Of a stretch of DNA of 62,607 bases, positions 1,899 to 57,645 are shown one piece after another. The notes under the pieces were generated by a model. The model was not told the origin of the DNA. It ran no database searches and worked only from the letters and a program-made list of their open reading frames with translations. The stretch lies in the NCBI GenBank assembly GCA_903906315.1, contig CAIVJW010000256.1, positions 1 through 62,607 of the forward strand, written 5' to 3'. A program made the translations under genes and the position numbers. This DNA comes from an uncultured delta proteobacterium. Its GTDB lineage: Bacteria; Myxococcota_A; Polyangia; Polyangiales; Polyangiaceae. Position 1 is the stretch's first letter. Every line of letters starts with the position of its first letter.

Positions 1899-3857
1899 AT
1901 GATCTCCCCCGAGACCATCGCGCTCGTCAAAGAGCGCACCGATCTGGTCGCCCTCATCGGCGAGAACGTGAAGCTGACCCGCCGCGGGAGAAGCTTCGTG
2001 GGCCTGTGCCCGTTCCACAAGGAGAAGTCCCCGAGCTTCCACGTGAGCCCGGAGCGCGGCTACTTTCACTGCTTCGGCTGCAAGGAGTCCGGCACGGCCG
2101 TCGACTTCCTGATGAAGGCCGAGGGCCAGACGTTCCCCGAGGCCGTCAAGAGCCTCGCCGAGCGCGCCGGCATCGAGATCGAGGAGACCCTCACCGATGT
2201 GGAGCGGCGCGAGGCCAACGCTGCAAAGCGAGCGAAGGACGACCTCTACGCGGTCAACGCGCTCGCGGCGACGTACTACGAGCGCTGCCTGCGCGACCCG
2301 CAGAGCGGCGGCCACCCGCTCTCCGGCTACGCTCGCGCCGAGCTCCTGAAGCGTGGTCTTCCGTGGGCCCAGCCTCTCGACACGGCCGAAGGGCAGCCGA
2401 TCGACCAGGTCGCCGCGACGCTGCAAGCCTTCCGCATCGGCTACGCGCCCTTCGGCTGGGATGGCCTGGCGAGCTTCCTCCGCCAGCAGGGCGTCTCGCC
2501 GCTCGCGGCCGAGCGGGTCGGCCTGCTCGTGCCGCGCTCGAGCGGCAGCGGCCACTACGACCGCTTCCGACACAGGCTCATGTTCGCGGTCAGCGACGTG
2601 ATGGGCCGCATCCTCGCCTTCAGCGGCCGCGCCCTGCCCGACCCGCCTCCGGCGGAGATCTCTTCGCTCGGCATCAGCGGACCGTCGACCGCGAACGCGG
2701 ACGGTCCTCCGGCCAAGTACGTCAACAGCCCGGAATCGCCCATCTACACGAAGGGCGATCACCTGTTCGGCCTCTACCAGGCGCGCCAGGCGATCCGACA
2801 GGAGAACGAGGCGGTCCTCGTCGAGGGCAACTTCGACGTCGTCTCCCTGCACGCGCGCGGGGTCGCCAATGTCGTCGCGCCGCTCGGCACCGCCTTCACC
2901 TCGGCGCAGGCCAAGCTACTCAAGCGCTTCGCCCCCACCGCGGTGATCCTGTTCGACGGCGACGCCGCCGGCCGTAAGGCGACCCGCGCCTCCCGCACGT
3001 CGTGCCGCGAGGGCGGCCTCACCGCCCGGGTCGCCATCCTGCCGCAGGGCGTCGACCCCGACGACCTGGCACGCACGGAAGGACCGGAGGGCGTGAAGCG
3101 GATCGTGAAGGGCGCCCGCGGGATGCTCGAGTACCTGATCGACGAGGCCCTCGCCTCCACGGCCTTCGGAGGCGCCACGCTGACCGAGCAGCTCGCGCGA
3201 ATTCGGAGCGTCGCCACCCTGCTCCGAGACGAGGACGACCCTACGCTTCGGATGATGGCCAAGAGCTACGCCGACCAGCTGTCGGCGCAGCTTGTCATCA
3301 ACGGCCGTTCGCCCACCGATCTGCGCCAGCTCGAGCAAATCATGGACCAGGCGATGCACCGGCCGGAGGCGGCCGCCGAGGAACACGATGCGTCCTTGAC
3401 CCGTGGCGAGACGGCGCGCTCGCGATCGTCGATCCCGCAGATTGGCTTCGACACCGTCGGCGCGCTCATCGACTTCCCCGAGCTGCTCTCCGACGACGAG
3501 GTGGCCGAGGCGCTCGGCATCCTCGACGGCGAGACGGCGCTTGCGGTCGCCGCACTGCGTCAGGCATTCTCCCCTGAAAAGGGGCTCGTGGGGGCTGATT
3601 TCCTTGCGCTTTTGCCCCCGCCGATCCATGCATTCGCCGCTGGACGACTGGCTTCGCCCGCCTTCGAGGGGCTCGGTGACGCGAAGGTCGCGCTCTTGAG
3701 AAACGCAGGGAAGTTGGAGCGGTTGAGCTTGAAGCGCGAGAACGCCGCCGTGGTGGATAAGCTCCACCGGGTCGGTTCGCAGGGGGACGCAGCTGCGGAG
3801 GACGAGCTACTCCGCGAGGTTCAACGGAGGTCGCGAAGGAAGCTGGGGCTGTCGTGA
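1899..3857 (+). CDS. dnaG: DNA primase DnaG
   Basis: Primase that makes RNA primers at the replication fork. The 652-residue protein begins MISPETIALVKERTDLV, the canonical DnaG N-terminus, so the ATG at 1899 is preferred over an in-frame start about 100 bases upstream. The CHC2 zinc finger is complete: C37, H40, C58 and C61 in CPFHKEKSPSF and YFHCFGC. The catalytic TOPRIM region carries EGNFDVV near residue 308 and the acidic pair in LFDGDAAGRKA. The C-terminal helicase-interaction region is less conserved but of normal length. The gene sits between the atp operon and rpoD, recalling the macromolecular-synthesis operon without rpsU. A T-tract terminator separates it from rpoD. Confidence 0.97.
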   Translation: MISPETIALVKERTDLVALIGENVKLTRRGRSFVGLCPFHKEKSPSFHVSPERGYFHCFGCKESGTAVDFLMKAEGQTFPEAVKSLAERAGIEIEETLTDVERREANAAKRAKDDLYAVNALAATYYERCLRDPQSGGHPLSGYARAELLKRGLPWAQPLDTAEGQPIDQVAATLQAFRIGYAPFGWDGLASFLRQQGVSPLAAERVGLLVPRSSGSGHYDRFRHRLMFAVSDVMGRILAFSGRALPDPPPAEISSLGISGPSTANADGPPAKYVNSPESPIYTKGDHLFGLYQARQAIRQENEAVLVEGNFDVVSLHARGVANVVAPLGTAFTSAQAKLLKRFAPTAVILFDGDAAGRKATRASRTSCREGGLTARVAILPQGVDPDDLARTEGPEGVKRIVKGARGMLEYLIDEALASTAFGGATLTEQLARIRSVATLLRDEDDPTLRMMAKSYADQLSAQLVINGRSPTDLRQLEQIMDQAMHRPEAAAEEHDASLTRGETARSRSSIPQIGFDTVGALIDFPELLSDDEVAEALGILDGETALAVAALRQAFSPEKGLVGADFLALLPPPIHAFAAGRLASPAFEGLGDAKVALLRNAGKLERLSLKRENAAVVDKLHRVGSQGDAAAEDELLREVQRRSRRKLGLS

Positions 3858-3901
3858 CGCGACCCGGCCGTGCGAGCACGCCGGAAACGCGACGATTGGG
3901 A

Positions 3902-3972
3902 CCGCCTGTGCGCGACCTCGGGGGGCCACGGCCTTCGAGTGATGCGAGCGCACGCAGGCGGATTGTTTTTTT
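3902..3972 (+). terminator. Rho-independent terminator between dnaG and rpoD
   Basis: CCGCCTG plus TGCGC (3902-3913) pairs with GCGCA plus CAGGCGG (3948-3961), with a CG bulge. A nested hairpin (CTCG..GGCC ac GGCC..CGAG, 3917-3939) sits inside the loop. The stem is followed by ATTG and seven Ts at 3966-3972. This is the only stem with a long T-run noticed in the window. It would end or attenuate transcription coming out of dnaG just upstream of rpoD. Confidence 0.75.
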
Positions 3973-4049
3973 CTCGACTCCGGCCGGGTGCCGGGACCGT
4001 CTTCGAGTAGACGCGGCGGGGATCGGCGCCGCGGGTGGAGCATGAGGTA

Positions 4050-6065
<2,016 letters not shown>

Positions 6066-10603: not shown

Positions 10604-13063
10604 GTGCCCCGCATCGATCAGCTGGACCTGCCCCTGAGCGGCGACGGACCTCGCCGCGGCAAGGGCGGCCCGCCCCACGGCTCCGACCCCCCTGCCCCGA
10701 TCATCCCCGACACGTCCCTCGCCGAAGAGGCGCAGCGCAAGTACCTGAACTACGCGCTCAGCGTCATCACGTCGCGCGCCCTGCCCGACGTGCGAGACGG
10801 GCTGAAGCCGGTGCAGCGTCGCATCCTCTACGCGATGGCGAACGACCTGCACCTGGGGCCGGACGCGCGGTTCCGAAAGAGCGCGGCGGTCGTCGGCGAC
10901 GTGATGGGCAAGTACCACCCGCACGGCGACACCGCGATCTACGACGCGATGGTGCGCCTGGCGCAGGACTGGGTCATGCGCGCGGCCCTCGTCTCCGGTC
11001 AGGGGAATTTCGGCTCGATCGACGGCGATTCGCCCGCCGCCATGCGCTACACGGAGACCCGCCTCCGCCCGCTGGCCATGGAGCTGCTCGCCGAGCTCGG
11101 CAAGAAGACGGTGGAGTGGCGGCCAAACTACGACGGCACGCGCTTCGAGCCGATCGTGCTGCCGAGCCGGCTGCCGAACCTGCTCATCAACGGGTCGCAG
11201 GGCATCGCCGTCGGCATGGCGACGAGCATCCCGCCGCACAACCTCGGCGAGGTCGTCGACGCGTGCATCGCGCTCGTCCCCGAGATGATGTCGCGACCGG
11301 CGCCGCACGCCGAGGGCGGGGACGCCGGGCTCTCGACCAGCAAGCTGCTCAGCCTGGTCAAAGGCCCCGATTTTCCGACGGGAGGGCAGCTCCACGCGAC
11401 CAAGGCGGAGCTGCTCCAGGTCTACGAAACGGGGTCGGGATCGCTTCGCCTGCGCGGCGAGTGGCGGAGCGAGGAGGATAGCCGGCGCGGTTCCGGCCCG
11501 ATCGTGGTGCTGACGTCGATCCCGTACGGCGTGGAGCGCAAGGCGATCGTCGAGAAGGTCGCCGAGGTCATCATCTCGAAGAAGCTGCCGAGCCTCGTCG
11601 ACGTGCGCGACGAGTCCACCGACGTCATCCGCGTCGTGCTCGAGCTCAAGCGCGGCACCGACCCGCAGCTGGTGATGGCCTACCTGTACAAGCACACGCC
11701 GCTCGCGGTGAGCGTGCAGGTGAACCTCACGTGTCTGGTGCCGACCGACAACCCGGAGGTCGCCGCGCCACGACGCCTCGGCCTGCGAGAGATGCTCACG
11801 CAGTTTCTCGCGTTCCGCTACTCGACCGTCACGCGGCGCATCGGCTTCGACCTCGGCGAGCTGTCGAAGCGGATTCACCTCCTCGAGGGCTTCGAGAAGG
11901 TCTTCGACGCGCTCGACGAGGTCATCAAGATCATCCGCAAGAGCGAGGGCAAGGCCGACGCCGCCGAGAAGCTCATGGCGCGCTTCGGCCTCTCGGAGGA
12001 GCAGACCGAGGCGATCCTCGAGCTCAAGCTCTACCGCCTCGCCAAGCTCGAGATCCTGGTCGTTCGCAAGGACCTAGCCGAGAAGCGCACCGAGGCGAAG
12101 AAGCTCGACACGCTGCTGAAGAGCGACGAAAAGCGCTGGAACCTCGTGCGCGAGGAGCTCGTCGAGATCAAGGCGAAGTACGCCGACAAGCGCCGCACCA
12201 AGATCATGGGCAGCATCGACGAGCCCGAGTACGCGGCCGAGGACTTCATCATCGCCGAGGACGCGAACGTGATCCTGTCGGCGCAGGGCTGGGTGAAGCG
12301 AGTGCGCGAGGTGAAGGACCTCGGGGCCACACGGCTGCGCGAGGGCGACTCCGTGCTGACGGCCATCGCCGGCTCGACGCGCGCGTCGGTCGCGTTCCTG
12401 TCGAACCTCGGGGGCTGCTACGTGTGTCGCATCCACGACGTCGCTCCGTCCACCGGCTACGGCGACCCGGTGCAGAAGCTCTTCAAGCTGGCGGACGGCG
12501 AGCGGATGATCGGCATGCTGTCGTTCGACCCGCGCGCGCTCGACGTGCCCGAGCCGACCGAGGGCGCACCCGAGCCCGAGCCGCCGTACGGGCTCGCTAT
12601 CACGAAGGGCGGCCTCGGCTTCCGCTTCTCGCTCCGGGCCCACCGCGAGCCTTCGACGCGCGCCGGACGGCGGTACGCGCGCCTCAACGAGGGCGACGAG
12701 GTCATGACCGTCCTGGTCACGTTCGGCGGCGAGAGCGTCGCGTGCGTGGCGAGCGACGGGCACGCGCTCGCGGTTCCCGTGAGCGAGATCGGGCTGCTCG
12801 GCGGCGCGGGCAAGGGATCGATGGTCATGAAGCTGACCGAGGGCGAGCGGCTCGTCGGCGCCGCGCTCCTGTGGGGAGCGCGCGACGTGATCGACGTCGA
12901 GACCGAGAAGGGCAAGGCGATGAGCCTCTCGCTCGCGAAGATCGGCGGCAGCCGCGCCGACCGCGGCAGCCCCATCGTCAAGCGCGACCGCTTCGCGCGC
13001 GTCGTCCCGCCCGAGCTCGTCCTGCCCACGCTCGACGCCCCCGAATCCCAGAAGGGTAACTGA
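10604..13063 (+). CDS. parC: Type IIA topoisomerase subunit A, ParC-like
   Basis: DNA-cleaving subunit of a type IIA topoisomerase (819 residues). The GTG at 10604 is chosen because GGAG lies 10 bases upstream; the reading frame stays open further up. The breakage-reunion domain is standard: [17 protein letters not shown], the segment [15 protein letters not shown], and the active-site tyrosine Y149 in AAMRYTE. The C-terminal domain shows weak beta-pinwheel repeats and no clear GyrA box, which favours topoisomerase IV (decatenation) over gyrase. The residue matching E. coli GyrA S83 is threonine (T110). The partner B subunit begins 1 base after the stop, and its sequence is also ParE-like. 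Confidence 0.88.
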
Positions 13064-13064
13064 C

Positions 13065-15002
<1,938 letters not shown>

Positions 15003-26777: not shown

Positions 26778-29700
26778 CTACGGCTCGACCGCGACGCCGA
26801 GCTGGACGCGCAGCGCGTGGTGCGCGTCCGACACCACGAAACCGAGCAGATCGTCGAGCTTCGCCTCGGCGCCGAGCACGCCCCGCGCCTCGTTGCGCAG
26901 CACGCCGGCCACGACGTCGAGATCGCCCGAGAGCGTGTAGCCCGCGCGCGTCGCGCAGCGCTCGACCGATCCCGCCCAGCGCGACAGATCGACGCGCCCG
27001 CCGGCCTGCTCGAGATCGGACACGGCCTGGAGCAACCGGTCGTGCTGATGATCGGCCAGGCTCACTTCGAGATGTCGCTGGAGCGCCTCCACCTCGCCGC
27101 GCAGCTTGCCGGGCACGGGCGCGGTCGACTTCGCGACGCCGATCGCGGCCAGGAAGCACGCGGAGAGGTCGTCGAGCGACGGATAGTAGAGGAGCAGCCG
27201 GTGCTCGCCGACGAAGTACGCGAGCTGCCGCCCGGCGAGGAACGCAAGCTCGGAGAGGCTGCGCCCACGCAGCACGGTGCCGCCCGCGACGACGGCGAGC
27301 GGGTCCGTCGTCACCGCGGCGAGGGCGAGCGCCGCGTCCTCGCGCAGGTAGAGCGGAGGCGCCGCGACGCCGAGCAGGTGGCTCGCCCACGCGAACGACC
27401 GCACGATCGACAGCGTGCTGAGGTGCGCGTCCTGCTTCGTCGCCGGGTCGAGGACCGGCACGCGCCCGTCGGCCTGCGTGCGCGCGATGCGGAACGCGAT
27501 CGCCGGCGCGGCGACGGCTGCGAAGATCGCGCCGACGTTTCGATCTCGGTCGGCCGGCTTGAAGAGGTCCCAGGACGAGTCGAGGAGGGGCCGCTCGAGC
27601 TTCGGCAGGCCGCTCGGCCGATGCTCGTCGAAGACGAAGCGCTCGCGCGGCTCGGGCGCCCGCAGGTGCGACGTGACGGCAGCGGCGCAGTACGCCTGGT
27701 CGGGGCGCTTGCTGCGCTGGTAGAGCTCGAAGAGCGAGTGGAAGGTCGCGAGCCGGCTCGGGTCGAGCGCGGCGGCCTCCTGCAGGTGGCCGATGGCGCG
27801 CTCGAGCTGCCCCGTCTCCCGCGCGAGGTCCGCGGCGACGAGGTGCCCACCGAGATCCTCAGGCTTCTCGGCGAGCGAATCGGCGAAGGCGTCGAGCGCG
27901 AGCTCGGCGTCGTCGAGGTGATCGCGCAAGAGGAGGCCGAGCCGGCGGCAGAGCTCCCAGGTGATCTCCGCGCGGATGGCGCCCTTCGGTAGCCGCCCCG
28001 TGCGGCCGAGCATGCGCCGGTACACCTTCTCGAGCTCGCTCCACTCCTGACGCTCGGCGAGCACTTGCGCGAGGATCTCGAGCGATTCGAGCGCGCCCGG
28101 GTCGGTCTCGAGCGCGAGCTCGAGCGTCGCGAGCGCCTCGTCCTCGCGATCGAGATCGCGCAGCAGGTGCTTGCCGAGGGCGACGAGGCGCGCGCCCTTG
28201 GCCTTCGGATCCTGGGTCGCCTGGGCGGCTCGCCGCCTCATCGCGAGCGCGAGATCGCGCGCGCCTAGGGACTCGTAGACACGGTGGAGCTCATCGAGGA
28301 CGCGGACGTCGTCCGGCCGCAGATCGCGCGCCGCCTCGAGGCGAGCGCGCGCCCGAGGCACGTCGCCGGCGACGTCCTCCCAGCGCTTGGCGAACGCCGT
28401 GAGCAGCGCGAAGCGGGCGCCCGCGTCCTTCTCCATGGCGAGCAGGCGGTCCTCGGTGGCGGCGACCGCACGAAAATCGCGCTCGGCGAGGCACAGCTCG
28501 AGGACGGCTTCGAGCGAGCCTCGATGTCCCGGCACGATGGAGAGCGCCTTCTCGTAGCTCGAGATGGCCTCGCGCGCCTTGCCCTGCGCGCGCTTCGCGT
28601 CGCCGATGCGCTGGTAGATCGTCGCGCGCTCGGGTGGCGTGGCCAGGCCGCGCGCCAGCGCCCGCTTGAGCTCGGCGAGGGCCTCGTCGTGCGCGCCCCC
28701 CTCGTTCAGCGCCTCCGCGGAGGCGATCAGGGCGACGACCGAGGCCTCCTCGACGGGGGCCCTCGTCGCACCGGCGGCCGAGGCGACCGGCGCCTTGACC
28801 GCCCCGGTCGCGACGGGCGCGGGGGCTGGCGCGACGTCGGCCGGGGATGGATCGGCCCCGGCCGGCGCGGACACGTCGCCCCTCGACGCCTCGCTCTTCG
28901 ACACGTCGACGATCACGCGCGGCAGCTGCGCCTGCGGGAGGGGCGCGACCGCGCGATCGGTCGGCGCTGCGACCTCGGTCGATGGCGGTGGCTCGGGCGG
29001 CCCGATATCGACCTGGATATCGTCACTCGATGCGCGCGGGTCGGGCGCCGCGACGATGACGACCGGCGGCGGCTCGGCGACCGGCGGCGGCGCGGGGTCG
29101 ACGTGGGCGTCGGCCACCACGGGATCGGGAGGCGATCCGGCAGGAAGGACCGGCGCGTGCTCGGCAACGGCGAGCGCAGGAGCCTCCACCGGTCCGGCCG
29201 CCGACTCCCGCGGTGCGTCGCCCTCGACGTCGACGGATGGCGCGACCGCCGGCGCGGGCGTGCCCGGTGCGTTCGCGCTCGAAGGCCCGGGCGCGGGCTG
29301 GGGGGTCGAAGGAGGCTCGCGGCGCTGCGGCGGCACGATCGCGAGCGGGAGCGCGCCTCGCACGAAGCCGAAGCCGGGCACCACACCGACCAGGGCCTCG
29401 CTCTCGCGCACCCGCGCATAAAGCGCCTCGGCGGTGATCCCTTCCGCGGGATCGACGTCGTCGATCGTCTCGACGACCGCGCGGGTGAACGGCGAGGGCA
29501 CCTCCTCGGTGCGATCGCTCGTCGGGCGGGCGCCGATGAGCAACCCGATGCCGGGCGCGACGCTCTTGAGCGCGTCCTTGGCCGCGGCGACCACCGTCGC
29601 CGACCGGAACGGGTCCTCCGCGTCGGGCATGTGCCGGCACTCGAGGACGAACAGCACGGGACCCGACGCCCGATCGCGGAACACCGCGGCCACGTCCGCG

Positions 29701-29999
29701 ATCGCGTCCCCCGTGTCCGGGTTCGCCGGATCGAGGCACAGGAAGAACTCGCCGGCCTCGGACAGCGCGGCGGAGCCCGAGGCATAGAGGACGACCGTGT
29801 CCTCGGATCCGGGGGCCTCCTGCTCGAGGATCCCGTCGATCTGCTCCGCCAGGTCCACGGCGGGGTCGAGATCGACGACGCGAAACCGCGTGTCGTCGAG
29901 CGGTAGCCGAGATCGGACGAGGTCGCCGTCCAGCGCTCCGGGGGCGGGCCGCTGGTTCGGTTCGAGCGTCGGCGTAGCGATGAGTGCGAGACGCTTCAT
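26778..29999 (-). CDS. Degenerate caspase-like domain protein with TPR repeats
   Basis: A 1073-residue cytoplasmic protein. Residues 1-220 resemble a caspase/metacaspase (C14) fold: YASGSA at 72-77 matches the usual YFSGHG, LFVLECRHMPD at 116-126 matches the catalytic-cysteine strand, and PSPFTRAVVETI at 169-180 matches the conserved late motif. The catalytic histidine is replaced by S76 and the cysteine position is unclear (C121 or R122), so it is probably not a protease. A Pro/Ala-rich linker runs to about 410. TPR-like repeats span about 440-800 (for example AISSYEKALSIVPGHRGSLE). A C-terminal ~250-residue domain with LAFLAGRQLAYFV and LLLYYPSLDDL has no known name. It is the last gene of an FHA-kinase cluster, 94 bases downstream of the kinase. 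Confidence 0.75.
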   Translation of the reverse strand: MKRLALIATPTLEPNQRPAPGALDGDLVRSRLPLDDTRFRVVDLDPAVDLAEQIDGILEQEAPGSEDTVVLYASGSAALSEAGEFFLCLDPANPDTGDAIADVAAVFRDRASGPVLFVLECRHMPDAEDPFRSATVVAAAKDALKSVAPGIGLLIGARPTSDRTEEVPSPFTRAVVETIDDVDPAEGITAEALYARVRESEALVGVVPGFGFVRGALPLAIVPPQRREPPSTPQPAPGPSSANAPGTPAPAVAPSVDVEGDAPRESAAGPVEAPALAVAEHAPVLPAGSPPDPVVADAHVDPAPPPVAEPPPVVIVAAPDPRASSDDIQVDIGPPEPPPSTEVAAPTDRAVAPLPQAQLPRVIVDVSKSEASRGDVSAPAGADPSPADVAPAPAPVATGAVKAPVASAAGATRAPVEEASVVALIASAEALNEGGAHDEALAELKRALARGLATPPERATIYQRIGDAKRAQGKAREAISSYEKALSIVPGHRGSLEAVLELCLAERDFRAVAATEDRLLAMEKDAGARFALLTAFAKRWEDVAGDVPRARARLEAARDLRPDDVRVLDELHRVYESLGARDLALAMRRRAAQATQDPKAKGARLVALGKHLLRDLDREDEALATLELALETDPGALESLEILAQVLAERQEWSELEKVYRRMLGRTGRLPKGAIRAEITWELCRRLGLLLRDHLDDAELALDAFADSLAEKPEDLGGHLVAADLARETGQLERAIGHLQEAAALDPSRLATFHSLFELYQRSKRPDQAYCAAAVTSHLRAPEPRERFVFDEHRPSGLPKLERPLLDSSWDLFKPADRDRNVGAIFAAVAAPAIAFRIARTQADGRVPVLDPATKQDAHLSTLSIVRSFAWASHLLGVAAPPLYLREDAALALAAVTTDPLAVVAGGTVLRGRSLSELAFLAGRQLAYFVGEHRLLLYYPSLDDLSACFLAAIGVAKSTAPVPGKLRGEVEALQRHLEVSLADHQHDRLLQAVSDLEQAGGRVDLSRWAGSVERCATRAGYTLSGDLDVVAGVLRNEARGVLGAEAKLDDLLGFVVSDAHHALRVQLGVAVEP

Positions 30000-30093
30000 G
30001 CCTCTTCGCCCAGCGGGTAGGACCGCATGATGGCGAGCGAATCTAGCAGGGCCGTCGCCGCTGCGGGAGCCGTTCGACGCGGCCGGTGCCAGG

Positions 30094-31353
30094 TCAGGTC
30101 GCACCGGTCAGCGCGCGCACCACGGCGGCGCCGTCCGCAGGCCGCGCGACGTCGGGCCCCATGCACGAAAGAGCCAGCGCCCTCCACGATGCCAGGTCCG
30201 AACGGGCCTCGGGGAATCCCACGGCCGGGTCGAGCCGCTCGATCACGTCCTCGAGGATGCGCCCATAGCCGTACACGTCGTCCCTCGCGTCCGAGGGCCG
30301 TCCCGCGAGGCGCTCGGGCGAGAGGTACCCCGCGCTTCCCCCCTCGGCCGGTGCCCCAGCGAGTCGAGCGAGCCCCAGGTCCCCGAGCACGGGCTCGTCA
30401 CCGGATCGGAGCAGGATGTTCGCGGGCTTCACGTCCGCGTGCACCCAACCACGGCGATGCACCCGCGCCAGCGCCCGCGCGAGGGGCACGGCCCAGCGCC
30501 CGACGGGCTGAAGGACCTCGAGGTCCCCCGATCGGAGGACGTCCCGCACCGATCCGAGGGCGACCCACTCGAACGCGATCCAGCCCTCCGACGGGCTCGC
30601 GTCGAAGACGCGCACGACGCCCGGCCCCGCGAGCTCCACGGTCGCGGCGACCTCGCGCTCGAGCGCGGCACGGTCCGCGTCGCGCCGGTGATAGATCTTG
30701 AACGCCGTTCGCCGACCGAGCACCTCGTCCTCGGCCTCGTACACCGCACCGGCGCCACCGCGCGCGGCCTCGCGAAGGACGCGAAACGGGCCGCCCTTGG
30801 GCGTGGCGGCGACAATTGTCGCCTCGTCCTTCGCGCGCGGCCGCGACGAAGCCCCCCCCAGCTCGGTGGTCCAGCGCCGGTGCCGCTCCACCGCGCCGGG
30901 CGCCGCGATGTCCCGCGCGAGCACGCGCTCGATCGTCCCGACCGCCCGCGCGAGCTGCCCGGTCGCCGCGTGAAGGTCGGCCGCGAGCACGAGCCCCGCG
31001 ACGCAGCGAACGCCCTCGAGCACCCTCAGCGCCGACGCCTCTTCGCCGCGGGCCGCGAGGATCTCGGCGCACGCCACGCGCACCTCCTCGGCGACCGGAC
31101 GCGCCGACGCCGCCTCGATCGCAGCGCCGACCGCGGTCGCCTCGCGCGCCGTCCCGCGGGCTCGGCGTAGCAGCCCGATCGCCTCCTCGACGCCGGGCCC
31201 GCCGGGCCGCCCGAGCTCACCGAGCCGATCGATCAGCCGGTCGTTGTCGCGCGGCGGCTCCGGCGCGGGAGCCGGCTCGGCGGCCGCATCGACCGCCCGC
31301 GGCGAGGCCCCGTCCCCGCCGAACAGCGCGCGGACCTTGCCCCAGAGGCTCAT
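30094..31353 (-). CDS. Hanks-type Ser/Thr protein kinase with N-terminal helical region
   Basis: A 419-residue soluble kinase. Residues 1-170 are helical and TPR-like, with no kinase features. The kinase domain runs from about 188 to the end: a glycine-rich loop (ARGGAGAVYEAED), the ATP-anchoring K219 in AFKIY, the catalytic loop HADVKPANILL (D307; HAD instead of HRD), the metal motif DLG instead of DFG at 325-327, and APAEGGSAGYLSPERL. All catalytic residues needed for activity are present. A TPP/TIV-type segment before the domain (EATIVAATP) is a plausible phospho-acceptor for the FHA partner. Its start overlaps the FHA gene's end by 4 bases, so the two are translationally coupled. Confidence 0.9.
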   Translation of the reverse strand: MSLWGKVRALFGGDGASPRAVDAAAEPAPAPEPPRDNDRLIDRLGELGRPGGPGVEEAIGLLRRARGTAREATAVGAAIEAASARPVAEEVRVACAEILAARGEEASALRVLEGVRCVAGLVLAADLHAATGQLARAVGTIERVLARDIAAPGAVERHRRWTTELGGASSRPRAKDEATIVAATPKGGPFRVLREAARGGAGAVYEAEDEVLGRRTAFKIYHRRDADRAALEREVAATVELAGPGVVRVFDASPSEGWIAFEWVALGSVRDVLRSGDLEVLQPVGRWAVPLARALARVHRRGWVHADVKPANILLRSGDEPVLGDLGLARLAGAPAEGGSAGYLSPERLAGRPSDARDDVYGYGRILEDVIERLDPAVGFPEARSDLASWRALALSCMGPDVARPADGAAVVRALTGAT

Positions 31354-32555
31354 TCGCTGCCCCCGCGCGGAGCCACCACGCGCAGCCGTACGGGCCCGCC
31401 GCGCTCCGCACGAAATTCATCGCCCACGCAGAGCTCGGCCACCGCGCCGACCTCGAGCTCCCCCAGGATCGGGCGCGAAGCCCCGTCCGGCGTGCGAAGC
31501 ACCACGAAGGCCTGATCGCCCTCGACCTCGCGGCCGATCCGCCACCCTCGTACGCGCAGCTCGCCGAGGGGCGCGAGGTACCGCTCGCCCGCGACCTCGA
31601 CGACCACCTCGGTCGACGCTCCCGACGCGTCTACGCCGCGCGGCGCGATCGCGCACGGCACCTCCCCGCCCAGCTCGACTCGCACGCCCTCCCCGACGGG
31701 GATCGAGCCCTCGAGCCGTGCGCCGGCGATCAGCGTCCCGTTCCGAGTCCCGAGGTCCTCGACGACCGCCCCCGCCGTCACGCGCCCAATCCGAAGGTGC
31801 ACGCGGCTCACCGCCCGAGACGCCACCACGATGGTCGCTTCGCCTCGGCCGACGGTCACCTCGTCGCCGAGCGCGCACCGGACCGGCTCGCCATCGATCT
31901 CGAGATCGACGACGGGCCCCCGCGCGAGCCGCGCCGTGATGCCCCTCGCCGCATCCGCCGCGCGCTCGGATTCCGGCCCCCCGGCAAGGCTCCGCGCCAC
32001 CCCCAAGGCCGCGCGCCGCTCCCCGCCTCGGTCGAGGTCGTCCAGGCGAAGCAGCGCGTGCTCGCGCTCGACCCGACCTCGGTCCGCGGCCTCGTCGCGC
32101 ACCAGCCGCGCCTCGAGCTTCTCGATCGCCCCCGCCGCGGTCAGCGCGCGCACCTCCCCTTCGATGTCGCCGACCAGGGCGTACGCCTCCGCGGCGCGCT
32201 CGTGCTCGCCCACCGCCTCGAGGTCCCGAGCGACCTCGACGACGTCCGTCCGCAGCAGCGCTCCGCCTCCGCCGCGCAGGACATCGAGCCCGAGCAGCGC
32301 CTTGCGACCCGCCGCCCGGCGCCGCAGCGCCTCGTCGACCGCCGTCGCCGCAGCCAGCGCGCAGAGCGCGATCCGGCGCGCCGGCGACCCTTCGGCGTCC
32401 GCCCGAAGAAGGAGAAGCCGCGCCGCGTCGTCCGGCCGCCCAGCTTCCACGTAGAGCGCCGCCGCGGCCTCGAGGTCCCCGGCGAGCTCCCTCTTCCTCG
32501 CCTCCTTCGCGCGCGATCCGGACCAGAGATCGCCGAGCCGGTCGAAGAGTCCCAC
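31350..32555 (-). CDS. FHA-domain protein
   Basis: A 401-residue soluble protein starting with GTG at 32555. Residues 1-205 are helical repeats (AGDLEAAAALYVEAGRPDDA, VGEHERAAEAYALVGD) resembling TPRs. An FHA domain follows at about 213-300, with the phosphothreonine-binding residues in GRGE, S250/R251 and H253 of VSRVH, and N272-G-T in RNGTLIAG. The C-terminal ~100 residues hold a second beta-rich segment that could be another FHA-like fold but lacks the full binding set. The gene's stop overlaps the kinase start by 4 bases, so the FHA protein is likely the kinase's phospho-dependent partner. Confidence 0.88.
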   Translation of the reverse strand: MGLFDRLGDLWSGSRAKEARKRELAGDLEAAAALYVEAGRPDDAARLLLLRADAEGSPARRIALCALAAATAVDEALRRRAAGRKALLGLDVLRGGGGALLRTDVVEVARDLEAVGEHERAAEAYALVGDIEGEVRALTAAGAIEKLEARLVRDEAADRGRVEREHALLRLDDLDRGGERRAALGVARSLAGGPESERAADAARGITARLARGPVVDLEIDGEPVRCALGDEVTVGRGEATIVVASRAVSRVHLRIGRVTAGAVVEDLGTRNGTLIAGARLEGSIPVGEGVRVELGGEVPCAIAPRGVDASGASTEVVVEVAGERYLAPLGELRVRGWRIGREVEGDQAFVVLRTPDGASRPILGELEVGAVAELCVGDEFRAERGGPVRLRVVAPRGGSE

Positions 32556-32656
32556 GGGCGAACCTTAGCGCAGCCCTGCCGCGAGCGAGATTCCGAGGCG
32601 GACTCCGCGTGCTACGCGCGGCAAGGCCGTTGACGAAGTCACCAAAGCCTTGAAAC

Positions 32657-34378
<1,722 letters not shown>

Positions 34379-34445
34379 CCCACCGCGGACAGGCCCGGCG
34401 CAGCACCCGGATCACGTCCTCCAAGGTCGCGAGAAAGGCCCACGA

Positions 34446-35546
34446 ATGTCGACTGCCGCGCCCGAGGGGCTCAAGTATTCGCTCCAGCAGCTCCTCAAGG
34501 CGATGGTCGAGAAGGGCGCGAGCGACATGCACATCACGACCGGCTCGCCGCCGCTGCTGCGGATCGACGGCGCGGTCGTGCCGCTCAAGCTCGCCCCGCT
34601 GAACGCCCAGGAGGCCAAGCAGCTCTGCTACTCCGTGCTCAGCGAGGAGCAGAAGATCAAGTTCGAGAAGATAAGCGAATGCGACCTGTCCTTCAGCATG
34701 AAGGGCCTGTCGCGCTTTCGCGCCAACGTCTTCCTCCAGCGCGGCGCGGTCGCCGGCGTGTTCCGTCAGATCCCGTTCAAGATCCTGTCGTTCGAGGACC
34801 TCGGCCTCCCGCAGATCGTGACCGACATCACGAACAAGCCCCGCGGCCTCGTGCTGGTCACCGGCCCCACCGGCTCGGGCAAGAGCACGACGCTCGCCAG
34901 CATCATCGACAAGATCAACTCGGAGCAGCGGCTCCACATCATGACGATCGAGGATCCGATCGAGTACCTGCACCCGCACAAGCTCTGCGTGGTGAACCAG
35001 CGCGAGGTCGGGGCGGACACGGAGTCGTTCAAGTCGGCGCTCAAGTACGTCCTTCGACAGGACCCGGACGTCGTGCTCGTGGGCGAGATGCGCGACCTCG
35101 AGACCATCGAGGCCGCGCTCACCATCGCCGAGACGGGTCACCTCGTCTTCGCCACCCTGCACACGAACTCGGCGATCCAGACGATCAACCGCATCATCGA
35201 CGTCTTCCCGCCTCACCAGCAGCCGCAGGTCCGCGCGCAGCTCTCGTTCTCGCTGGTCGCCGTCATGACCCAGCTCCTCATTCCGCGCGAGAACGGCGGC
35301 CGGTGCCTCTCGATGGAGGTGCTCATCCCGAACGCCGCCATCAAGAACCTGATCCGCGAGGACAAGCTGCACCAGATCTACTCGCAGATGCAGATGGGGC
35401 AGGCGGGCAGCGGGATGCAGACGATGAACCAGGCCCTCCTCGAGCTCTACAAGCGGCGAATGATCTCCCTCGAGGAGGCCTACGCGAACTGCGGCGACGT
35501 CGACGAGCTACGCTCGATGGTCGAGGGCAAGCCAAGCAAGCGGTAG
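34446..35546 (+). CDS. pilT: Type IV pilus retraction ATPase PilT
   Basis: The motor for pilus retraction and twitching (S-) motility, 366 residues, cytoplasmic. The N-terminal PAS-like domain contains GASDMHITTGSPPLLRIDG. The RecA core has the Walker A GPTGSGKSTT, the Walker B RQDPDVVLVGEMRDLETIE and the His-box TGHLVFATLHTNSA. The C-terminal AIKNLIREDKLHQIYSQMQMG is the PilT signature (AIRNLIRE-like) needed for retraction. It is preceded by pilB. lexA follows 65 bases later on the same strand but has its own promoter. Confidence 0.97.
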   Translation: MSTAAPEGLKYSLQQLLKAMVEKGASDMHITTGSPPLLRIDGAVVPLKLAPLNAQEAKQLCYSVLSEEQKIKFEKISECDLSFSMKGLSRFRANVFLQRGAVAGVFRQIPFKILSFEDLGLPQIVTDITNKPRGLVLVTGPTGSGKSTTLASIIDKINSEQRLHIMTIEDPIEYLHPHKLCVVNQREVGADTESFKSALKYVLRQDPDVVLVGEMRDLETIEAALTIAETGHLVFATLHTNSAIQTINRIIDVFPPHQQPQVRAQLSFSLVAVMTQLLIPRENGGRCLSMEVLIPNAAIKNLIREDKLHQIYSQMQMGQAGSGMQTMNQALLELYKRRMISLEEAYANCGDVDELRSMVEGKPSKR

Positions 35547-56134: not shown

Positions 56135-57571
56135 TCAGTGCGGGATGAGCCCGCCGAACCACGCGCCCGCCGCGAGCAACGCAAGCGCGGCGACTGCGAG
56201 CAGCACCTTCACGGCCGTGGAGGACCCGCCGGCCCCAGCGGCCGCGAGCGCCGAGCCTGCGGAGGCCGGAGACAGCGCGGAGCGGCCCGAGCCTGGAGCG
56301 GGCGCGAGCGGCCCGCCTGGACGTGACGGGACCGCGGCCGGCAAGGCCTGCGAGCTTGGGCCCGATTGCGGCTCGTCGTCTTCGAGCGCGGCGAGGTTGC
56401 CCTCCTCGAACGCGCCGGACGGCAGCGACTGGCGGACGAGATTGTCGCCGGTCGCGGTCACGTTGATTTCGTCAGCCCAGCGACCGATGTCCTCGAAGCC
56501 GCCGAGCTTGAGCGGCTCGTCGCTGCTGGGCGGCCGCGAGACCGCCGCGGCCCCTGCGCGCTCGTCCTGAAGCGAGGTGAACTCGAGGAGCGCCTCCTCG
56601 ATGAGCTTGTCGATGATCGACGCTTTGTCGGGCACCGCCTTCTTGCGGACCGACATGGCGCTGCGGACGAGCTCGGCGATGTCCCACGCGGTGACCGGAT
56701 GGCCGAAGTGGAAGAGGAAGCCTGTGAGGTCACGCGCCAGGTCCCGGGCGGTCTGGTAGCGCTTCGCCGGGTCCTGCGCGAGTGCGCGGGCGACGATCGA
56801 CTCGAGCTCGGGCGGAACGTCGCGGTGGTACTTCGACAGCGAGGGGACGCTCGCCTGCTGGACGAGCTTCACCGTCTGGAAGTCGGACTCGCCGAGGAAG
56901 AGGCGACGGCCGGCAAGGATCTCCCACAGGATGATGCCGACGGCGAAGACGTCTGCGCGGTGATCGACCTCGCCTCCGAGCGCGGCCTCGGGCGCCAGGT
57001 AGCTGAACTTGCCCTTGATGATGCCGGCTTCGCTCTTCGCGAGCTGACTCGTGGCCTTGGCCAGGCCGAAATCCACGATCTTGATCTCGCCGTACTTCGT
57101 GATGAGCACGTTCGGCGGAGAGACGTCGCGGTGCACGATGCGGAGCGGGGCGCCGTCCGTTCCCGTGAGCTCGTGCGCGTACGAGAGGCCCTCGCACATC
57201 TTCGCGACGATGTAGACCGCGGCTTGGACCGGGAAGGCGCGGCCGCTCGCCCGCATGTACTCGATGACGCCCTTCAGGTCGGCGCCGTCGACGTACTCCA
57301 TGACGATGAAGTACGCGCTGTCGCCGACGCCGATGTCGAAGACCTGGACGACGTTCGAGTGGCTGAGGTGAGCCGAGAGGCGCGCCTCGTCCAGGAACAT
57401 CGCGATGAAGCGCTTCTTCTCGCTGAGGTGCGGCAGGACGCGCTTGATGGCGACCTGCTTCTTGAAGCCCTCGATGCTCGCGCTCTCGGCGATGAACACC
57501 TCGGCCATCCCGCCGGAGGCGAGACGTTCGAGCACGCGGTAGCGCTGCTGCGGGTGGTGGGCCTCGCTCAT
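56135..57571 (-). CDS. Membrane-anchored Ser/Thr protein kinase
   Basis: A 478-residue Hanks-type kinase with the kinase domain at about 10-285: glycine loop LASGGMAEVFIAE, K43 in VAIKRVLP, the catalytic loop VHRDVSPPNVLI (D followed by V-S-P, a common myxobacterial variant), DFGLAKA, and SYLAPEAALGG. All catalytic residues are present. A low-complexity juxtamembrane region (about 300-450) leads to a C-terminal membrane helix (VKVLLAVAALALLAAGAWFGG) with only four residues after it, so it has no outside sensor domain. It is divergent from nothing close: the SMI1-like gene lies 74 bases upstream on the same strand, so the two may be one transcript. Confidence 0.93.
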   Translation of the reverse strand: MSEAHHPQQRYRVLERLASGGMAEVFIAESASIEGFKKQVAIKRVLPHLSEKKRFIAMFLDEARLSAHLSHSNVVQVFDIGVGDSAYFIVMEYVDGADLKGVIEYMRASGRAFPVQAAVYIVAKMCEGLSYAHELTGTDGAPLRIVHRDVSPPNVLITKYGEIKIVDFGLAKATSQLAKSEAGIIKGKFSYLAPEAALGGEVDHRADVFAVGIILWEILAGRRLFLGESDFQTVKLVQQASVPSLSKYHRDVPPELESIVARALAQDPAKRYQTARDLARDLTGFLFHFGHPVTAWDIAELVRSAMSVRKKAVPDKASIIDKLIEEALLEFTSLQDERAGAAAVSRPPSSDEPLKLGGFEDIGRWADEINVTATGDNLVRQSLPSGAFEEGNLAALEDDEPQSGPSSQALPAAVPSRPGGPLAPAPGSGRSALSPASAGSALAAAGAGGSSTAVKVLLAVAALALLAAGAWFGGLIPH

Positions 57572-57645
57572 GGTCCGCCTCTACTACAACACGATCGCCG
57601 ATGGGGGGCCACGACGCGCCAGCGCCGTGTAGGTCGGACGGTGAG

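Follow-up and report, generated by a model that had tools for sequence, protein, structure and literature searches.

An FHA-kinase gene pair encoded back to back with pilB suggests a phosphorylation switch on the pilus extension motor, with a caspase-like gene added late in one branch

The locus described here raises the question of why genes for an FHA-domain protein, a Ser/Thr kinase and a caspase-like protein lie side by side on one strand, and which cellular machine such a set of genes might serve. The window (the whole stretch of DNA that was analyzed, 62,607 nucleotides) is contig C256 of an 8.8 Mb assembly in 455 contigs, whose nearest named relative in the genome collection is a Byssovorax metagenome-assembled genome. 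The open reading frames and coordinates of the three minus-strand genes reported in the first-pass annotation hold, as does the overlap of 4 nt that it had noted between the first two, which are the gene of the FHA-domain protein (31350 to 32555, minus strand; 401 aa, GTG start, helical/TPR-like) and the gene of a Hanks-type Ser/Thr kinase (30094 to 31353, minus strand; 419 aa, ATG start, with a helical N-terminal half). The third gene (G3; 26778 to 29999, minus strand; 1073 aa, ATG start) follows the kinase gene on the same strand after a gap of 94 nt, is flanked on its other side by an M3-type peptidase gene, and encodes a caspase-like head, a linker, TPRs and a C-terminal domain. The three genes were thus as first described, with two features overlooked, namely the C-terminal domain of G3 (300 aa) and the divergent genes pilB and pilT.

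These two genes, named after their sequence families, encode homologs of the type IV pilus extension ATPase (pilB; 32657 to 34378, plus strand; 573 aa) and of the retraction ATPase (pilT; 34446 to 35546, plus strand; 366 aa). Together (32657 to 35546) they are transcribed divergently from the FHA gene across an intergenic region of 101 bp (32556 to 32656), which measures 83-255 bp in relatives. The window pilB encodes the best PilB of its own genome, with the nearest paralog at 43%. When this intergenic region was aligned for five genomes of the clade that carries all three genes, the string GTTGAC was found to be recurrent and is possibly a promoter element.

The FHA domain (residues 233-296; 31668 to 31859, minus strand) matched PF00498 with an E-value of 2e-10 and 41.4 bits, above the cut-off of 20.7, and the window protein contains the signature GR ... 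SRxH ... NG. In an alignment of 80 FHA proteins the phosphothreonine-binding residues were kept as R237 in 80/80, S250 in 79/80, R251 in 80/80 and H253 in 80/80, and N272 and G273 were present in 68/80 and 80/80, respectively. The kinase domain (residues 197-373; 30235 to 30765, minus strand) matched PF00069 with an E-value of 1.5e-20, and its catalytic residues were invariant in the family alignment (K219 in 73/73; E234, D307, N312, and D325 in 72/72). Judged by these residues, i.e., the VAIK Lys, the αC Glu, the HRD Asp, the Asn and the DFG Asp, the protein is a catalytically intact Hanks-type kinase. No transmembrane-like stretch was detected in the FHA protein, the kinase or G3, in agreement with the earlier description of the kinase as soluble.

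The linker between the helical half and the catalytic domain of the kinase is variable, and its columns reach about 65% conservation at most, apart from T179 (DEA-T-IVA; codon 30817 to 30819, minus strand), which is Thr in 68 of the 72 aligned kinases (“ATIV”) and is nearly always followed by a hydrophobic residue. Because T179 is so widely kept and the phosphothreonine-binding residues of the FHA proteins are near-invariant, we propose T179, a putative phosphorylation site, as the best candidate site for FHA docking. As a looser control, a regular expression was used to look for any “T + hydrophobic” pair N-terminal to the catalytic domain; it matched 61/64 members of the family vs. 7/12 paralogous kinases and so discriminated poorly between the two groups. 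Since the loose motif also occurs in these paralogs, the argument for T179 rests on the alignment column and not on the motif. An acceptor segment of “TPP/TIV” type had been indicated in the kinase at first pass, of which the TIV is found (T179-V181) and the string TPP is absent from the protein.

To survey the conservation of the pair, the FHA and kinase proteins were searched against 59 genomes that share the family and order of the window, and in most of these the best matches to the two were adjacent. Across the phylum, 379 genomes were scanned with the FHA protein profile (E<=1e-20), 66 of which had an ortholog, and the neighboring genes were mapped in 80 loci fetched from the FHA-profile matches and related matches. 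With few exceptions, the 80 loci have the kinase gene after the FHA gene in the same orientation, commonly with the 4-nt overlap; in the exceptions the kinase gene was located 2.5-4.8 kb from the FHA gene or was absent from the retrieved stretch. The FHA and kinase genes are a conserved unit, and their pairing is not due to chance, because it is conserved across a phylum. For these two genes the “phosphorylation-controlled module” proposed in the first-pass annotation is well supported by the intact kinase and FHA residues, the kept overlap and gene order, and the nearly invariant Thr of the linker.

Conserved genomic linkage to pilus genes, which was used as a criterion for a pilus regulator, was found throughout the order, where pilB directly adjoined the FHA-kinase pair in 53 of the 57 determinable loci. 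The pilB-linked loci span families f1, f3, f5, f6, and f9, and on the tree of FHA proteins the label “pilB” showed strong clustering, with 4 changes needed vs. 19 in shuffled labels. The exceptions were two loci from genomes lacking a PilB ortholog (L045, L171) and two loci of family f8 in which the pair is located away from pilB (L053, L055). The pair is oriented divergently from pilB in nearly all loci. In two genomes of one genus (G228 and G398; loci L137 and L139) pilB is transcribed in the same direction as the FHA and kinase genes, and the ATG of the FHA gene lies 14 and 7 nt, respectively, after the pilB stop codon, an arrangement that looks like an operon. At 11 of the 53 pilB-linked loci pilB stays at the FHA gene and pilT is not nearby, and hence the contact of FHA gene and pilB has outlasted that of pilB and pilT. 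PilB and the pair do not co-occur consistently across genomes: about 11 of the genomes sampled from the family have PilB but lack the pair, and G020 and G004 have the FHA gene but no PilB ortholog; neither thus requires the other.

This independent occurrence is what would be expected if the pair were a general phospho-signaling relay with other targets, whose position beside pilB was inherited, is held in place by a divergent promoter region common to both, and lacks mechanistic meaning for the pilus. The other neighbors of the pair outside the order and in family f8, and its divergent rather than operonic arrangement in nearly all loci, likewise fit such a relay. However, pure inertia or a shared promoter explains poorly why the link to pilB has outlasted the link between pilB and pilT in 11 loci, or why one genus switched to the apparent operon with the contact to pilB kept, and we consider a general relay doubtful. 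The back-to-back position of the pair and pilB in this large group of soil myxobacteria suggests instead a phosphorylation switch on the pilus extension motor, through which the pair would control the motor.

The caspase-like head, long linker, and TPRs that had been read from the 1073-residue protein at first pass were all found in G3, the head as a match below the cut-off. The head (residues 45-199; 29403 to 29867, minus strand) is supported by the model NF047832 (“caspase, EACC1-associated type”) and an alignment of 18 heads; the domain alone matched the model with an E-value of 2e-5 and 24 bits against a curated cut-off of 140, and 7 of 17 related heads matched it with a best E-value of 3e-14. 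There was no match to Pfam C14 in the window protein or the window genome. The catalytic His of the strand-3 YxSGH position was absent in 18/18 heads, which have YASGS, YVSSP, YASTS, and others in its place, and given this loss a protease output of G3 is unlikely; the Cys of the head (C121 in the window G3) was kept only in the clade carrying all three genes. The head is followed on the same strand by a P/A-rich linker (about residues 215-425; 28725 to 29357; 22% P, 22% A), a TPR region identified by profile search (about residues 426-770; 27690 to 28724), and the C-terminal domain (residues 770-1073; 26781 to 27692), which belongs to no named family and was present in 59/59 relatives. The structure models of the head (single sequence, pLDDT 52) and of the C-terminal domain (two sequences, pLDDT 37) were too poor for use, the Foldseek matches of the former being meaningless; PDB profile searches with both domains returned nothing credible, and the C-terminal domain had no Pfam match either. 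This domain was found in 95 of 189 genomes of the phylum. It was also considered as a degenerate metallopeptidase, and this was rejected since the likeness of its ELAFxxGRxLAY to an HExxH helix is a mere resemblance. The open reading frames with this domain (L057-L086) differ widely in length, some having about 3,800 codons and the largest reaching about 3,400-4,200.

Close orthologs of the G3 head were limited to eight genomes of five genera, which together fall within a single supported clade on the tree of FHA proteins, and in all eight of these genomes G3 is located downstream of the kinase gene in the same orientation, with a gap of 94, 128, 449, 469, or 2040 nt depending on the genus (five genera measured). 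The caspase-like gene 3 is a late add-on found in one branch only. A survey of the gene neighborhood of the trio had been suggested in the first-pass annotation, and its outcome was that the trio is kept in this clade only and the FHA-kinase pair broadly; the three-gene module survives as a lineage-specific arrangement (8 genomes, one clade), with the pair occurring elsewhere without gene 3. The original proposal, in which all three genes form one phosphorylation-controlled module with the caspase-like protein as the target of the kinase, draws on the gene order and strand conserved in that clade. Since the kinase and FHA genes are conserved without gene 3 across most of the order, and since the head lacks the catalytic His that a protease output would need, we regard this proposal as distinctly unlikely.

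Gene 3 could also be an independent neighbor outside the kinase pathway. The gene is preceded by a gap of its own (94-2040 nt), which contains small antisense open reading frames in loci L001 and L037, its linker contains no invariant Thr, and distant relatives of the whole gene are found in genomes that lack the pair (G005), or well away from it, which makes gene 3 a separable part. On the other hand, independence does not readily account for the position and orientation downstream of the kinase gene kept in 8/8 genomes with a close ortholog, nor for the headless proteins with TPRs and the C-terminal domain near the locus in three further genomes (L051, L170, and L171). An independent gene 3 is thus a serious possibility, if somewhat short of an even one. 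In the Byssovorax locus L001 (8030 to 9618, minus strand) the small open reading frames that separate gene 3 from the kinase gene have secretion-signal-like starts. The headless proteins carrying the C-terminal domain of G3 are encoded near the FHA/pilB locus at 13004 to 14938 (L051), 2 to 1594 (L170), and 1918 to 3603 (L171).

The explanation that we tentatively favor, and hold to be close to evenly balanced, is a two-protein phosphothreonine relay made up of genes 1 and 2, with the pilus extension machinery as its most likely target and with gene 3 added once as a scaffold. The soluble kinase would phosphorylate its own linker at T179, or T179 would be phosphorylated otherwise, and the FHA protein would then dock on this phosphate mark. 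The proposal of self-docking at T179 has a precedent in the DgcB protein of Bdellovibrio, where the FHA domain reads a phosphopeptide from the tail of its own protein (PMC6733907). The docked complex would bring the kinase activity to its target, which it would phosphorylate or hold, and in this order the target would most likely be the machinery that extends type IV pili (PilB, or possibly the PilB/PilT switch). Gene 3 would have joined on a single occasion, in the ancestor from which one clade of the family descends, and would be a catalytically dead caspase-like TPR scaffold that perhaps recruits clients to the relay; any tie of gene 3 to the pair is presumed. T179 offers a specific site for testing the relay.

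The known regulators of type IV pilus motors are c-di-GMP, PilZ/FimX, small GTPases, and chemotaxis-type systems, and the cofactors of PilB include MglA/SgmX/FrzS. PilZ-FimX, c-di-GMP, and MglA/SgmX/FrzS are cofactors of the same extension motor, yet none of them is known to be an FHA protein or a Hanks-type kinase. Cytoplasmic FHA proteins that are paired with a Ser/Thr kinase and read phosphothreonine are known from the mycobacterial FhaB/FipA with PknB-type kinases and from GarA/OdhI. The window FHA protein matched the model NF049868 weakly and in its FHA part alone, scoring 38 bits where the cut-off is 125, and unlike the PknB-type kinases the window kinase is soluble and has no PASTA domains. 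In Sulfolobus acidocaldarius, the archaellum, an organelle resembling a type IV pilus, is influenced by ArnA (FHA), ArnB (vWA), and the kinases ArnC/ArnD (PMC5300886, PMC4858521). Like the pair described here, the Arn network ties an FHA protein and Hanks-type kinases to a type-IV-pilus-related motility machine, and we regard it as the closest functional analog, with homology not implied. It differs in being archaeal, in the vWA domain of ArnB, for which the FHA-kinase pair has no counterpart, and in its gene positions, as the genes of ArnA/ArnB reportedly always lie outside the pilus and archaellum loci (PMC4858521) and the pair abuts pilB. A 2024 review of PilB cofactors does not mention “FHA”, and the kinases in the available part of its text are those of histidine-kinase systems (PMC11656802). 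In the literature searched for FHA, kinase, and pilB together, no description of a link between an FHA/Hanks-kinase pair and PilB was found, and within this literature the earlier suspicion that the system may be undescribed seems right. If such a phosphothreonine relay exists, with its genes adjoining that of the extension ATPase, it would be a further layer of pilus motor control.

Other orders and classes contributed 20 loci (L148-L167), all with the pair and with no pilB nearby, and nine of these (L149, L151, L152, L156, L158, L159, L161, L162, and L165) had a bpMoxR gene (E=2e-73) and/or an fvmX7/bpX2-related gene close to the pair. With pilB as the neighbor in the order vs. MoxR-type neighbors outside it, the pair can evidently serve different neighbors. 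Ternary systems of the MoxR-vWA-propeller and FtsH types have been predicted to serve multicellular bacteria in biological conflicts (PMC7159879). The distant FHA-kinase pairs resemble these systems in adjoining bpMoxR and fvmX7/bpX2 genes, and the window locus differs from them in having no MoxR gene. Similarly, the G3 head matches the caspase model of the EACC1-associated systems (Kaur et al., 2020; PMC7159879), but G3 stays below its cut-off, lacks the catalytic His, and has a different C-terminal architecture. An EACC1 gene, whose product would have one TM helix, was not recognized among the genes flanking G3 (those of the kinase and the M3-type peptidase).

The pair could accordingly be read as part of these conflict networks (MoxR-vWA, EACC1 caspase), serving invader sensing or regulated cell death, with the head of gene 3 as an adaptor or decoy. 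Besides the MoxR-type neighbors and the match of the head to the EACC1-associated model, the loss of the catalytic residue would be in line with such a role, given that catalytic activity is missing from about 70% of the caspase domains that take the effector position in VMAP systems (PMC7159879). Nevertheless, searches with MoxR seeds gave matches in the outgroup loci only and none beside the window trio or at pilB-linked loci, PADLOC returned generic kinase-domain matches only and none for genes 1 and 3, and the MoxR-linked pairs are divergent outgroups. We consider it quite improbable that the pair belongs to a conflict network; in the MoxR-linked lineages it may have a conflict role.

A bolder form of the favored relay would have a dedicated FHA/Hanks-kinase switch acting directly on PilB across the order, derived from a pair that is associated with MoxR-vWA systems in sister lineages and supplemented by the dead-caspase scaffold in one clade; in this full form we hold it to be somewhat unlikely. 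On the FHA tree, which is unrooted, the change of neighbors can be read in either direction, from MoxR to pilB or from pilB to MoxR. With MoxR-type conflict genes in sister lineages vs. pilB here, the locus offers a case of a signaling pair possibly changing jobs.

Five of the MoxR-linked loci (L149, L151, L152, L156, and L162) also carry a kinase gene of about 1,270-1,500 codons, and the two members that were scanned contain AAA and TPR domains. An open reading frame elsewhere in the window (56138 to 57580) shares 37% identity with the kinase/AAA/TPR protein of these loci.
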